Shown: positions 793 to 22,089 of the stretch, one piece after another | Numbering within the stretch: position 1 is the stretch's first letter | Layout of the letters: every line of letters starts with the position of its first letter | NCBI RefSeq assembly: GCF_014634745.1 | Contig: NZ_BMBP01000011.1 | Span: forward strand, 1 to 64,000 | Direction of reading: 5' to 3' | DNA: 64,000 bases | From: Leuconostoc pseudomesenteroides KCTC 3652 | GTDB lineage: Bacteria > Bacillota > Bacilli > Lactobacillales > Lactobacillaceae | Made by a program: the position numbers and the translations under genes | The notes under the pieces: model-generated | What the model was told of the DNA's origin: nothing | Databases searched by the model: none | The model's input: the letters and a program-made list of their open reading frames with translations, nothing else

Positions 793-2280
793 TTATTCTG
801 GACGCATCGTTGGGAACAAAACCACATCACGAATTGTGTCAGAATCAGTCAGTAACATAATCAAACGGTCAATACCAACACCTAATCCACCCGTTGGTGG
901 CATACCGTATTCCAAAGCCTCAATAAAGTCTTCATCAATACCCTCAGCCTCATCATTACCATTTTCACGTTCGGCAGCCTGTGCTTCAAAGCGTGCCCGC
1001 TGGTCGATAGGATCATTTAATTCAGTGAAGGCATTGGCATATTCACCACCCATGATAAACAACTCAAAACGATCCGTGAAACGTGAATCGTCAGCGTTAC
1101 GTTTTGCTAAAGGTGAGACTTCAACAGGATGACCATAGACAAATGTAGGTTGAACCAAAGTATCTTCAACAAATTCCTCAAAGAATGCATTGATGATGTG
1201 ACCAACTGCCCAATACTTTTCGTATTTGACATGATGCTCATCTGCTAACTTTTGAGCCGCTTCAACTGACATATCTTGCCAAAAATCAACACCAGTGCGA
1301 TCCTTAATCAAGTCAATCATGTGTGCACGTGCAAAATTCTTTGATAGATCAATTTCAGTGCCTTGATAAGTAATTTTTAGGTCATCAGAAACAACGCCTG
1401 CCGCTGCCTTAAAAATACCTTCGGTTTCGTTCATGACATCAGTGAAGTCCCAATAAGACGCATACGATTCCATCGTCGTAAATTCAGGATTATGCTTGGG
1501 ATCCATCCCTTCATTTCGGAAAATACGTCCGATTTCATAAACACGTTCCATGCCACCAACAACCAAGCGCTTCAAATAAAGTTCTGTGGCAATACGCATA
1601 TACATATCAATGTTCAAAGCATTGTGATGTGTGATGAATGGACGAGCGGCAGCGCCACCAGCTTCTGTTTGTAGAATGGGTGTCTCCACTTCTAAGAACT
1701 CATTTTTGTCCATGTAAGCGCGAATGGCTGATATAATGTGTGACCGTTGTTGGAACTTTTTGAATGATTCCTCATTAGCAATCAAATCCAAATAACGCTT
1801 ACGGTAGCGTGTTTCGACATCTGAAATACCATGGAACTTATCAGGCATTGGGCGAAGTGCTTTTGACAAGTGTGTCAAATGCGTTGCCAAAACTGTTAAT
1901 TCGCCGGCTTCCGTCTTCATCATGATACCCTTAATACCAAGAAAATCACCCAAGTCAGCGCGCTTAATAATTGGGTAATTTTCGCCTAAGTCATCACGCT
2001 TAGCATAAACTTGGATTTTGCCTGACACGTCGCGAAAGTCCGCAAAAATAACTTTACCGGCACCACGCTTAGCCACCATACGGCCAGCAATCGTCACCTC
2101 ATGTTGTCCTGCTTCAAGTTCTTCTAAAGTACTATTATCGTACAAATCATGTAATTCTTGCGCTTTAGCTGAGCGTTCGAATCGTTTGCCAAATGGATCT
2201 AAATGTAAATCATCAACAAGAGTCGCTAACTTCTGACGACGGGCTAACATTTGATCATTAAGGGCTTTTTCTTCAGCCAT
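793..2280 (-). CDS. lysS: Lysine--tRNA ligase (class II)
   Basis: Lysyl-tRNA synthetase, 495 aa, the usual length for the bacterial class II enzyme. It charges tRNA-Lys with lysine in the cytoplasm using ATP. An N-terminal OB-fold anticodon-binding domain (about residues 55-150) precedes the class II catalytic core. Motif 2 is seen around [15 protein letters not shown] and motif 3 at the C-terminus as [11 protein letters not shown]. The ATG start is supported by GGGAAGGA upstream. The gene follows hslO by 87 bases. An hslO terminator (2345-2373) and an extended -10 (2337-2345) suggest it is transcribed separately. No T-box leader is seen. A short stem-loop lies at about 2301-2321 in the leader. 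Confidence 0.97.
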
Positions 2281-2336
2281 TCGTATAAAATCCTTCCCTG
2301 ATGAGCGCTTTTTGAACGCACTCCCACTAATTAAAT

Positions 2337-2345
2337 ATCATACCA
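2337..2345 (-). promoter_or_regulatory. Probable extended -10 promoter of lysS
   Basis: The minus strand reads TGGTATGAT, an extended -10 element. Only a weak -35 (TTTGAG, 18-base spacer) is visible. It is placed between the hslO terminator and the lysS ribosome binding site. Confidence 0.35.
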
Positions 2346-2373
2346 AAAAAACAGCATAATCTCAAAATTATGC
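2345..2373 (-). terminator. Intrinsic terminator overlapping the hslO stop codon
   Basis: A seven-base-pair stem GCATAAT/ATTATGC (2354-2360, 2367-2373) with a six-base loop is followed on the minus strand by a T-rich tail (2345-2351). The hslO stop codon (2368-2370) lies inside the upstream arm. Confidence 0.65.
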
Positions 2374-3261
2374 GTTGTTTTCTTCAATTTGTTTCAAAAT
2401 TTCTCGCAATTCTGTTGCTGTGAAAAAGTAACGTTTGCCTGAAAACTTACCCACAACTTCTGCACCATCATCTTCATCAATCATGGCTTTTATTTCTTCT
2501 GCCGGTAACGTCGCTAACATCTTAGCATAAGCAGATTTTGGTGGTTCGGCTGCTAAACCGACACCGGCTGTTTGCAAAATATTAACTTCACCTTTTCCAA
2601 ATATTTCTTCTAAGATGTCTAGCGGTGTGTACCCATCTGACAGCATATCAGATAGCGGTCGCATGTTAGCCAGTGCTTTCTCAAGTTGATCAATTGATGC
2701 ATCGCTGGCGCCTGGTAATGCTTGTACTAAGAATCCACCTGCCACACCAACTGTATCATCTTCGTTCATATAAACCGAAACACCAATTGCCGATGGAATT
2801 TGTTCAGACTGTGCCAAATAGTAAGTAAAATCATCACCAATTTCACCGCTCACCAATTGACTTTGTCCAATATAGGGATTGGCGTATGGTGCAAATTTGG
2901 TTACTTGCAAAACCCCATTGTGCCCGACTGCTTGCGCAACATCCAATTGTCCGGCATCATTCAATATCACATCTAGTTGCGGATTGGTCACATACCCGCG
3001 TACACTGCCTTTAGCGTCTGCTTCTACCACAACGTTGCCAATTGGTCCACGGCCATTGAGCTGAATTGAGAGACGTTCTTCCCCTTTTAAAACAGCCTGT
3101 GCCATTAACGTTGATGCTAATAAACCACGACCCAAAACAACCGAAGCGATACGCGATGTATCATGAGTTTGTGCTGCTTCTCGAACTAAATTTGTCCCAT
3201 TCACAGCAAATGCACGAAAGTCATTATTTTTTGTAATTGCCTTAATAAACTGATCAGCCAT
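2368..3261 (-). CDS. hslO: Hsp33-family chaperone lacking all cysteines
   Basis: 297 aa, full Hsp33 length. Classical Hsp33 is a redox-switched holdase chaperone. Four C-terminal cysteines (CxC and CxxC) bind zinc when reduced and form disulfides on oxidation, which activates the chaperone. The core fold is clear: an N-terminal domain with LNGRGPIGNVVVEAD around residues 68-82 and the linker region to about residue 230. The C-terminal GAEVV...F...Y.F motif is also recognisable. However, the positions of the cysteine pairs are replaced (ILQTAGVG, then VVGKFSGKRYFF), and the protein contains no cysteine anywhere. A zinc or disulfide switch is therefore not possible, so it may be constitutively active or activated by heat or unfolding. 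The start is supported by AAGGAAA. It follows the ftsH terminator. Confidence 0.9.
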   Translation of the reverse strand: MADQFIKAITKNNDFRAFAVNGTNLVREAAQTHDTSRIASVVLGRGLLASTLMAQAVLKGEERLSIQLNGRGPIGNVVVEADAKGSVRGYVTNPQLDVILNDAGQLDVAQAVGHNGVLQVTKFAPYANPYIGQSQLVSGEIGDDFTYYLAQSEQIPSAIGVSVYMNEDDTVGVAGGFLVQALPGASDASIDQLEKALANMRPLSDMLSDGYTPLDILEEIFGKGEVNILQTAGVGLAAEPPKSAYAKMLATLPAEEIKAMIDEDDGAEVVGKFSGKRYFFTATELREILKQIEENNA

Positions 3262-3285: not shown

Positions 3286-3311
3286 TAAAAAAGTCGACCT
3301 GACGGTCAACT
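3286..3311 (-). terminator. Intrinsic terminator after ftsH
   Basis: Eight paired bases including one G-T pair (3292-3299 with 3304-3311), a four-base loop, and a minus-strand run of six T (3287-3292). It lies between ftsH and hslO. Confidence 0.8.
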
Positions 3312-3320
3312 TCTATTTTA

Positions 3321-5417
3321 CTAATTTTTATCATGATTGTCATCAGTTGGTGCATCATCAGGTGCTTCAACAACTTCTGAATCGGAAGTTGTATCATCAT
3401 CTTTTGACTCACTATCTGGATGTTCATATTTTTCTTCAGCTTGAGAATCTTTTGCATCGGCTGCTGCCTTAGCTTCTTCAAACGACTTGGCAGTTGCCAA
3501 TTGATCATCATCTTGGACATCTTTACGTGTAAATTCACCCGTTTCATAAATGTCTTTAATTTGTCTTTCGTCCAACGTTTCAACTTCAAGCAAAGCTTCA
3601 GCAATAGCTGTCAACTTATCTTTGTGCTCTTGCAAAATCGTTAACGCATCGTTGAAAGCCTCTTGTGCCAAACGACGAACTTCTTCATCAATCAGACGTG
3701 CAGTTTCTTCAGAATATGCGCGATTGCCACCTTGATCAGCATAACCAACACTGGCATTACCTTCAAGTTGTACCATACCTAACTTATCTGACATACCAAA
3801 AGCAGTTACCATTTGACGTGCCAATCCTGTTGCTTGCTGGAAATCGTTGGAAGCACCAGAACTTGCTTCATTAAACATGAAGATTTCGGCGGCACGACCA
3901 CCCATCAAACCAGCTAATTGTTCCTTAGCTTCAGAATACTTCAAGTTGTAACGATCGTTTTTGGGCGTCATTAGGGCATAACCACCAATGCGACCACGTG
4001 GGACGATTGTTACCTTACGAACAACTGAAGCTTCTGAACGGACCAACCCAACCAACGCATGCCCCGCTTCGTGATAAGCGGTTGTACGTCGTTCTGATTC
4101 TGACATACCACGATTTGTTTTCGCAGGACCTTGGAAAATACGATCTTCCGCTTCATCAATATCAGCAGCATCAACCTTTTTCTTATTGCGACGAGCTGCT
4201 AACAACGCTGCTTCGTTCAACAAGTTTTCTAAGTCGGCACCGACATATCCTGGTGTCTGTTGCGCAATTGCTTTCAAATCAACGTTGTCAGCTAATGGCT
4301 TATTTTTGGCGTGAACATTCAAAATTGCTTCACGTCCTTTAACATCTGGTGCACCAACCAAAATCTTACGATCAAATCGACCAGAACGAAGCAAAGCCGG
4401 ATCCAATACATCTGAACGGTTGGTAGAAGCCAAAATAATTACACCCTCTGAACCTTCAAAACCATCCATTTCAATCAAAATTTGGTTCAGAGTTTGTTCA
4501 CGTTCATCGTTACCGCCACCCATTCCGGTACCACGGCGACGACCAACAGCATCAATTTCATCAATGAAAATAATTGCTGGGGCAGACTTCTTAGCGTTTT
4601 CAAACAAGTCACGAACACGTGAAGCACCAACACCAACAAACATTTCCACGAAGTCCGAACCAGACATTGAGAAGAATGGTACACTGGCTTCACCAGCGAC
4701 AGCCTTTGCCAGTAATGTCTTACCAGTTCCCGGAGGTCCTTCCAAAAGAACCCCCTTTGGTATACGAGCCCCTAAACTCACAAATTTCTTTGGTGATTTT
4801 AAGAATTCAACAACTTCAACCAGTTCTTGTTTTTCTTCTTCTGCACCAGCGACATCGGCGAACCGAACTTTATTGTCTTTGGGATCTGATGGCTTAGCCT
4901 TTGACTTGCCAAAGCTCATCATACCGCCTTGACCGCCTTTACCACCACCAGCTTGATTCATCATGACATAGAAGACAGCCACGATTAGCAACACTGGAAT
5001 GAGTGATACCAACAAGTTTAGCCAAAAACCAGAATTTTCAGCCTGTTTTGTAACTAATTCAGTCTTCGTCTTGCTTGCAGCTTGCGTAACTTCCTTCAAT
5101 GAGGCATCGTTAGGTAGCAAAGTTGACGTGAATTTTGTCACCTTTTGAGTTGGCTGTAAGAAACTAATACCGCTATCTTTAGAAGCAGTTTGTGCTTTTT
5201 TATAAGTACCAGTAATATTATAAATACTGTTACCAGGTTGCACTGTAATTGACTTGATTTCTTTGTCATTCAGCGCCTTAATAAATTCACTTGATGTTAA
5301 GGTTTTAGTCGTTGACTTATCGTTACCGAACAAGCCATAAAACATGCCAACAACAACAAGAAAGATAAAGACGTAGAAAATACTATTTCGAAAGAAACCG
5401 CCTTTGTTATTTTTCAT
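3321..5417 (-). CDS. ftsH: ATP-dependent zinc metalloprotease FtsH
   Basis: Membrane-anchored hexameric AAA+ protease, 698 aa, which degrades misfolded membrane proteins and some regulatory proteins. Two transmembrane helices (about residues 10-30 and 132-153) flank an extracytoplasmic FtsH-ext domain. The AAA module has Walker A GPPGTGKT (227-234), Walker [10 protein letters not shown] (282-290) and the second region of homology ending SGRFDR (345-350). The protease domain has the zinc motif HEAGH (449-453). The C-terminus is an extended acidic, Asp/Glu/Ser-rich tail of about 60 residues. The start is supported by GAGGAA. It lies 16 bases after hpt in the conserved tilS-hpt-ftsH order. Confidence 0.97.
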
Positions 5418-20103: not shown

Positions 20104-21723
<1,620 letters not shown>

Positions 21724-21748: not shown

Positions 21749-22033
21749 TTATTCAACGATTGCAACAATGTCTTTTTCATGAAGTGACAAGTAATCTTGT
21801 CCTTCAAATGACACTTCTTGCCCTGCATACTTATCAAACAAGACTTCATCGCCTACTTTAACTGTCAAATCGCGAATTGTGCCATCATTCAAGACATAAC
21901 CCGTTCCCGCAGCTACAACTTTGCCAGTAACAGGCTTGTCTTTAGCATTACTTGCCAACACAATCCCACCGACAGTTTGTTCTGCAGCTTCCGTTACTTC
22001 AATAATCACACGATCACCTAATGGCTTCAACAT
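21749..22033 (-). CDS. groES: Co-chaperonin GroES (Hsp10)
   Basis: 94 aa. Heptameric lid of GroEL. The protein starts [13 protein letters not shown], and the mobile loop region is [17 protein letters not shown]. The ATG at 22033 follows GGAGG; an upstream in-frame ATG at 22069 would lie inside the CIRCE operator and is rejected. First gene of the groESL operon. Confidence 0.97.
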
Positions 22034-22062
22034 GGATTCATACCTCCGAGATTTTTTTCGCT

Positions 22063-22089
22063 TTAGCACTCTATATATGTGAGTGCTAA
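22063..22089. promoter_or_regulatory. CIRCE operator (HrcA site) of groESL
   Basis: A perfect TTAGCACTC, nine bases, GAGTGCTAA. This is the full consensus inverted repeat bound by the heat-shock repressor HrcA, placed between the promoter and groES. Confidence 0.97.

Follow-up and report, generated by a model that had tools for sequence, protein, structure and literature searches.

A clade-wide Hsp33 variant without the zinc/redox cysteines in Leuconostoc and its relatives

In Leuconostoc pseudomesenteroides KCTC 3652, the gene hslO encodes an Hsp33 chaperone without a single cysteine. Judged by its sequence, the protein is the true Hsp33 orthologue of its clade minus the zinc/redox switch, with the rest of the protein kept. 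Cys-less relatives were found in a clade comprising Leuconostoc, Fructobacillus, Convivina, Oenococcus, and a genus that is probably Weissella. As the most likely explanation, at a probability of roughly 0.45, we propose a zinc-free, redox-blind holdase, the lid of which still folds and which would be triggered by unfolding. The window, i.e., the whole stretch of DNA analyzed, comprises 64,000 nucleotides (contig NZ_BMBP01000011.1, positions 1 to 64,000). Its features relevant to this work are the following:

2368..3261, minus strand: hslO, cysteine-free Hsp33 of 297 aa (ORF translation, HSP33 profile matches)
2737..3261, minus strand: N-terminal core domain, residues 1-175 (alignment, structure model; boundaries set for the alignment)
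2566..2736, minus strand: linker region, residues 176-232 (alignment, structure model; boundaries set by us)
2407..2565, minus strand: former redox-switch (zinc) domain, residues 233-285, without Cys and predicted to be folded (alignment, branch lengths, model)
2548..2550, minus strand: codon of A238 (alignment, Cys in 77/77 sequences outside the clade; codon read)
2542..2544, minus strand: codon of P240 (alignment, Cys in 77/77 outside; codon read)
2449..2451, minus strand: codon of G271 (alignment, Cys in 77/77 outside)
2440..2442, minus strand: codon of S274 (alignment, Cys in 77/77 outside)
3321..5417, minus strand: ftsH, upstream neighbor (ORF; name by sequence recognition)
793..2280, minus strand: lysS, downstream neighbor (ORF; name by sequence recognition)

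The open reading frame (ORF) at 2368-3261 starts with ATG and is translated into 297 aa with no Cys, as had been claimed in a sequence-only reading of the window. The coordinates given there were correct, and the strand has to be set to minus; the plus strand at these positions is closed by stops and holds no frame. The protein matched the entire PF01430 profile (positions 1-273; 276.6 bits, E = 2.9e-82, cutoff 21.4) and the NCBIfam model NF001033 ("Hsp33 family molecular chaperone HslO") with 285 bits, above the cutoff of 244. These matches bear out the earlier description as an Hsp33 of full length. Among the best 80 of the 202 named loci, which were those compared, its closest relative was the Hsp33 of Leuconostoc falkenbergense (96% identity). 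Because the protein has no Cys, it can form neither an intramolecular disulfide nor a zinc-thiolate center, and the statement that classical activation by zinc loss and disulfide formation is impossible is upheld. We infer that oxidants are unable to switch this Hsp33 by the disulfide/zinc route. The Cys-bearing second copy of hslO considered in the sequence-only reading was not found in the window's own assembly, in which this gene is the sole HSP33 match.

The order ftsH-hslO-lysS was found in nine displayed loci, five from the clade and four from outside, and at least one ORF lies between hslO and lysS in the latter. This neighborhood is thus common to the clade and to Cys-bearing Hsp33 relatives. 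An ORF of approximately 330 aa, which we take to be a dihydrouridine synthase gene, separates hslO from lysS in the outgroup loci L048, L049, and L059 and is absent from the window (2281-2367) and from five clade loci. No CIRCE site with up to three mismatches was detected near hslO, and CtsR-like sites were at chance level (14 vs. 12.08 expected), so that heat induction of hslO has no support from regulatory sites. The promoter scan gave 26 sites vs. 19.0 expected (SD 3.9), and the terminator scan gave 7 vs. 7.3 expected. A terminator-like hairpin between ftsH and hslO (3289-3314, minus strand; 11 pairs and a T run) could uncouple hslO from ftsH transcription; such sites occur in chance numbers in the region. 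Elsewhere in the window, a perfect CIRCE operator (22063-22089; 0 mismatches, 0.01 sites expected at up to three) is located at the start of two ORFs, recognized by eye as presumably groES (21749-22069, minus strand) and groEL (20104-21720, minus strand).

The four zinc/redox positions were inspected in an alignment of 124 rows, 47 inside and 77 outside the Cys-less clade. Each of the four columns contained Cys in 77/77 rows outside the clade vs. 0/47 rows inside. The claim that all four sensor cysteines are replaced was therefore borne out, and one of the two motifs named for the replacements was correct: GKFSGKRY contains G271 and S274. In contrast, ILQTAGVG lies several residues too early, because the alignment puts the first Cys pair at A238 and P240 in LAAEPPK. 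The replacing residues were A, P, G, and S in each of the 27 rows that make up Leuconostoc and the Fructobacillus/Convivina set (L032 and L035 included). They were P, a variable residue (I, T, L, or N; mostly I), D, and T in all 15 Weissella-like rows. The five Oenococcus-group rows showed mixed residues at 238 and 271. No consistent His/Asp/Glu set was present among these replacements, and on this sequence evidence we rejected the idea that the replacing residues form a new metal site.

All 19 genomes of the genus survey encoded an Hsp33 with 0 Cys. Among the best 80 of the 202 named loci, the motif C.C...C..C was found in 51/51 loci outside the clade and in 0/29 clade loci. The family survey covered 397 genomes sampled evenly from a larger group, 389 of them with HSP33. 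The clade accounts for 69 of the 397 (19 in g1, 13 in g2, 2 in g7, 1 in g8, 25 in g18, 7 in g29, and 2 in g39), and an HSP33 match was obtained in 69/69, one of them with a broken frame. Names were given to survey genera when their Hsp33 was identical to that of a named locus. By this means, g2 corresponds to Fructobacillus (L044) and "Leuconostocaceae bacterium" (L035), g7 to Convivina, g29 to Oenococcus kitaharae, g39 to Lactobacillaceae bacterium L1_55_11, and g5 to Pediococcus; g18 is probably Weissella and is called Weissella-like here by its place in the tree alone. The motif was found in none of the 68 intact clade proteins, and 66 of them had no Cys whatever. The other two are from Convivina (L033 and L039) and contain one Cys each, at residue 30, outside the old switch. 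In the broken frame, which belongs to the Leuconostoc fallax draft (g8; L046/L157), the C-domain is encoded in another frame and is also Cys-less; this may be either a draft error or a real pseudogene.

Outside the clade, the motif was kept in all 62 intact proteins of the same family that were read (the 30 from L100-L129 and 32 more). In the class survey of other families, HSP33 was present in 149/151 genomes, and the motif was found in all 29 of the 149 proteins read, i.e., the lowest scorers and some others. The surveys for Cys loss were confined to Bacillota. A Cys loss restricted to one genus was rejected, since the same state was found in intact copies of five further genus labels. The sequencing error or frameshift that the sequence-only reading had named as a way to overturn it is likewise excluded by the 0 Cys in 19/19 genus genomes and the missing motif in 68/68 intact clade proteins. 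The loss in this single gene was thus correctly seen, but its scope was drawn too narrowly: it is clade-wide and accompanied by the loss of the DnaJ zinc module (see below).

The surveys also revealed irregular HSP33 genes and genomes without a match. No HSP33 was matched in 8/397 genomes of the family survey, comprising 4/4 of g10 (G027, G065, G095, and G121) as well as G120, G168 (g9), G177 (g24), and G394 (g12), and in 2/151 genomes of the class survey, both g67 (G420 and G453). In single genomes outside the clade, HSP33 was split into two or three frames (L188 in G171, L189 in G020, and L350 in G479); L188 and L189 are broken before the zinc domain. G439, from another family, has two HSP33 copies: L348, one of the 29 proteins with the motif, and L351, which stops before the zinc domain. 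L159 (G094, g9) is an Hsp33 that has diverged very strongly (branch longer than 4) and contains 8 Cys; two other g9 genomes were without a match.

In a gene tree of 126 proteins, made by a quick method and with long branches flagged (including L047, which groups with the Oenococcus rows), the 47 Cys-less rows formed one side of a single branch (SH-aLRT 100, stem length 0.54). Aligning relatives and mapping the cysteine loss on a tree, the check suggested in the sequence-only reading, thus placed the Cys-less proteins in one clade. The simplest history suggested by the sequences is that the zinc center was lost once, in the common ancestor of the clade, and that the groups then settled into different residues. 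Several separate losses inside the clade are conceivable.

The C-terminal domain has outlived its cysteines. The sequence-only reading had spoken of C-terminal fold remnants; a domain is indeed there, but "remnants" is too weak, since the entire domain is present and conserved. Its constraint was measured as the C/N ratio, i.e., the summed branch lengths of the C-domain over those of the N-domain, with a fixed topology and the Cys columns left out. The ratio was 1.01 in the clade vs. 1.21 (25.99/21.51) outside. Within the clade it was 0.96 in Leuconostoc, 1.07 in Fructobacillus/Convivina, 1.27 in the Weissella-like rows, and 0.79 in Oenococcus. Four Cys-bearing groups were above the clade (Pediococcus 2.76, Secundilactobacillus 2.45, Furfurilactobacillus 1.76, and Lentilactobacillus 1.57), and two were not higher (Apilactobacillus 0.86 and the Bacillaceae set 1.15). 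A tighter C-domain constraint than in all Cys-bearing relatives was therefore dropped as a claim, two of the six comparison groups being in disagreement. Because of these two groups and the 1.27 reached by the Weissella-like rows, only the statement that the constraint was not relaxed in the clade is safe.

K242, Y245, D264, F273, F280, and L285 were invariant in 47/47 clade rows, and T251 and P253 were kept in 46 and 45 of the 47, respectively; Y245 and T251 are not the most frequent residues outside the clade. Among 13 Leuconostoc sequences (78 pairs, most of them saturated, with medians from pairs with dS <1.5), the median dN/dS was 0.072 for the N-domain (11 pairs), 0.106 for the linker (13 pairs), and 0.098 for the C-domain (34 pairs). 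Between the window and L. falkenbergense, the C-domain showed a dN of 0.017 and a dS of 0.480. Decay of the C-domain was rejected in view of the residues fixed in 47/47 rows, the C/N ratio of 1.01, and the low dN relative to dS. Instead, the sequences indicate that the domain is under purifying selection, with fixed residues of its own. The ratio of linker to N-domain branch lengths was alike in the clade (1.09) and outside (1.10), giving no sign of a new trigger in the linker.

The predicted structure points in the same direction. An AlphaFold2 model made from 36 clade sequences had a mean pLDDT of 93.9 and a pTM of 0.89, with the C-domain blocks (231-290) at 91-97, and showed the three-part Hsp33 fold of core, linker, and C-terminal domain. 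When this model was used in Foldseek, the top match was Bacillus subtilis Hsp33, followed by Thermotoga maritima 1vq0. Superposition gave TM scores of 0.89/0.92 and an rmsd of 2.0 over 285 columns for 1vzy_B, and TM scores of 0.86/0.88 and an rmsd of 3.0 for 1vzy_A; 1VZY is the reduced form of Hsp33 (PMC7423844, excerpt). A Cys-bearing Pediococcus control yielded nearly the same elements (mean pLDDT 91.6, C-domain blocks 88-94). Because this control folds alike, AlphaFold must be regarded as blind to zinc. The modeled clade sequence is thus compatible with a closed fold like that of reduced Hsp33, and the model speaks to the fold and not to the stability of the domain.

DnaJ and ClpX were compared in 16 clade and 12 outside genomes of the family (DnaJ loci L265-L292, with G000 as L285), a set to which L. 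fallax does not belong. The DnaJ zinc domain PF00684 was above the cutoff in 0/16 clade genomes and in 12/12 outside genomes. Weak matches below the cutoff were present in 14/16 clade genomes; the ORFs concerned are long (750-976 aa), and UvrA or UvrA-like proteins are among them. PF01556 (DnaJ) was found in 28/28 genomes, inside and outside the clade. With start codons picked mechanically, the clade DnaJ proteins had 299-318 aa and 0 Cys (16/16), and the outside ones 374-391 aa and 8 or 9 Cys (12/12). In the alignment, the cysteine-rich module is absent from the clade proteins between intact flanks. The top NCBIfam match of the clade protein was DnaJ_bact with 311 bits (below the cutoff of 377.2), vs. 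182 bits for curved DNA-binding protein. In five displayed loci, the ORF before the clade dnaJ has a C-terminus that we recognized by eye as presumably DnaK-like. Since DnaJ_bact outscores curved DNA-binding protein and a DnaK-like ORF precedes the gene, the clade J-protein is best read as a dnaJ product from which the zinc module was removed. Like J-proteins without a cysteine-rich domain (CbpA-like or "type II"), it has a J domain, a G/F region, and C-terminal domains, and no CXXCXGXG. Unlike CbpA-like proteins, it is closest to DnaJ_bact and is encoded behind a DnaK-like ORF. The ClpX finger was above the cutoff in 28/28 genomes, and UvrA in two clade genomes had kept its CxxC pairs.

Cysteine is scarce in the sampled clade ORFs as well. 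Counts were made in 300-kb samples of one genome per group, with ORFs defined by length alone, and are therefore rough numbers (clade, L190-L219 and L250-L264; outside, L220-L249). Cys made up 0.175% of ORF residues in Leuconostoc, 0.232% in the Weissella-like sample, and 0.317% in Oenococcus, vs. 0.373% in Pediococcus and 0.570% in g6; the share in the window's own ORFs was 0.258%. Cys-free ORFs amounted to 52-67% in the three clade samples vs. 28-39% in the two outside samples. Reciprocal-best pairs had fewer Cys on the clade side in 6/6 comparisons with 17 or more pairs, among them 3 vs. 48 in 28 pairs (G005/G062), 2 vs. 13 in 17 pairs (G005/G166), and 13 vs. 24 in 23 pairs (G110/G166). A comparison between the two outside genomes gave 39 and 62 Cys in 30 pairs. 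Among hslO neighbors, Cys per protein was lower in the clade than outside for Hpt (0.04 vs. 1.58), FtsH (0.00 vs. 0.52), and TilS (2.24 vs. 2.93), whereas LysS showed the opposite direction (0.29 vs. 0.13). The three clade samples contained 1, 2, and 1 proteins with two Cys-pair motifs, compared with 0 in the Pediococcus sample and 8 in that of g6; these counts in the 300-kb samples do not support a general loss of zinc-finger proteins. Because the sampled clade orthologues are Cys-poor, the most suitable view is that the Hsp33 switch disappeared during a retreat from cysteine across the whole lineage, in which the chaperone itself was kept. The driver was probably a retreat from dispensable cysteines.

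According to the reading that we prefer, a lid without zinc or thiols would be blind to oxidants and would be kept shut by its own packing. Heat, acid, or ethanol would destabilize the protein and release the lid, exposing the linker and the substrate surface. The opened Hsp33 would then act as an unfolding-triggered holdase and pass its clients to the DnaK system, the DnaJ of which would likewise be independent of zinc. A precedent is an algal Hsp33 with one lost Cys, which we believe to be that of Chlamydomonas. This protein, which also lost zinc binding, is described as responding more readily when conditions favor unfolding, as in mild heat (PMC7423844, excerpt), and a handover of Hsp33 clients to DnaK/J has been described (PMC4516975, excerpt). 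In the alga, zinc binding disappeared from an Hsp33 that was kept, as in the clade; one Cys is gone there, and all four are gone here across a bacterial clade. More tentatively, we suggest that the relay from holdase to DnaK has been rebuilt in the whole clade, the probable Weissella included, so as to need neither zinc nor thiols. The Hsp33 lid would have been packed anew around residues that became fixed in the clade, yielding a module that needs no metal and senses unfolding stress directly, and the DnaJ zinc domain would have been dropped in step. Natural evolution would thereby have turned an oxidant sensor into a sensor of heat, acid, and ethanol.

The main rival, which we regard as unlikely, is a locked, "reduced-like" Hsp33. 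Its lid would never open, and by analogy it would perform a redox-independent job, binding EF-Tu via the folded switch domain and steering EF-Tu unfolding and turnover. Reduced Escherichia coli Hsp33 does act as an EF-Tu unfoldase/aggregase; the closed form does so independently of its thiols, provided that the redox-switch domain is folded (PMC8614738, excerpt). A locked form needs a conserved, folded C-domain without a switch, and the clade C-domain is conserved and predicted to be folded. E. coli Hsp33 becomes fully active only upon both unfolding and oxidation, and zinc release by itself leaves the protein inactive (PMC10598452, excerpt); the latter is also in favor of the locked form. The same holds for an hslO mutant of L. 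reuteri, which survived HOCl like the wild type, though it showed a growth lag with oxidants (PMC6722424, excerpt). However, the EF-Tu activity is known here from the E. coli system only, where it was reported for zinc-bound, reduced Hsp33.

In the sequence-only reading, the protein was proposed to be a constitutive or heat-activated holdase. The constitutive half, with a molten zinc-less C-domain and a permanently exposed substrate site, is the less likely one and seems improbable to us. Zinc stabilizes the domain in known Hsp33 proteins (PMC4516975, excerpt), and the residues replacing the ligands are mostly small (A/P/G/S/T/D), with no evident substitute metal site. Yet the lid is conserved and predicted to be closed, and the release of zinc does not suffice to activate the E. 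coli protein (PMC10598452, excerpt). Six residues kept in 47/47 rows and a rate of evolution roughly as low as that of the N-domain would be surprising for a permanently unfolded domain, and the closed fold is predicted with confidence, albeit by a method blind to metal. An always-on holdase would also be expected to be costly. We give the same low weight to a neutral by-product of cysteine depletion, with a role of Hsp33 that is now marginal. The Cys-poorer clade orthologues in all six comparisons, the high percentage of Cys-free ORFs, and the loss of the DnaJ zinc module agree with it. Depletion accounts for the loss of Cys but not for the retention of the domain, and clade Hsp33 is under strong constraint. 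Furthermore, HSP33 was matched in every clade genome, whereas eight survey genomes of other genera have none, and the cysteine fingers of ClpX (28/28) and UvrA (two clade genomes) were kept. An artifact (sequencing error, frameshift, or second hslO) has practically no probability left and is already refuted for the window gene. The broken L. fallax frame would be in its favor, but its C-domain is Cys-less in the other frame too; the window's assembly has a single copy, and the same state recurs in the 19 genus genomes and under five further genus labels.

Clade Hsp33 shares full-length homology, domain order, and predicted fold with the redox-regulated Hsp33 proteins of B. subtilis (1VZY), E. 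coli, and T. maritima (1VQ0), which carry CxC and CxxC zinc cysteines; the clade proteins are without all four. In an excerpt of PMC7423844, the four cysteines are called fully conserved, and the second is said to deviate in <10 of 1579 sequences; that set may have contained few members of the clade or none. Another zinc protein version without the full cysteine set, C2 DksA, takes over in zinc-starved Pseudomonas (PMC8262869, excerpt). It is, however, an extra copy under zinc starvation, and the window Hsp33 is the only copy found. No report of a Cys-free Hsp33 or a zinc-less DnaJ in the clade was found by title or abstract start in the open-licence literature. We consider the Cys-free clade Hsp33 a new variant within the known Hsp33 family, not a new kind of protein; the loss of the DnaJ zinc module in the clade is new here.

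The bacteria of this clade are of importance for fermented foods, in the making of which stress by heat, acid, and ethanol is common. It would be misleading to annotate their hslO genes as "redox-regulated". The loss of the DnaJ module alongside offers a testable case that the holdase-DnaK pathway can drop thiol-zinc chemistry. Finally, clade Hsp33 separates the chaperone from the switch and thus provides a natural experiment on the roles of the lid beyond redox sensing.
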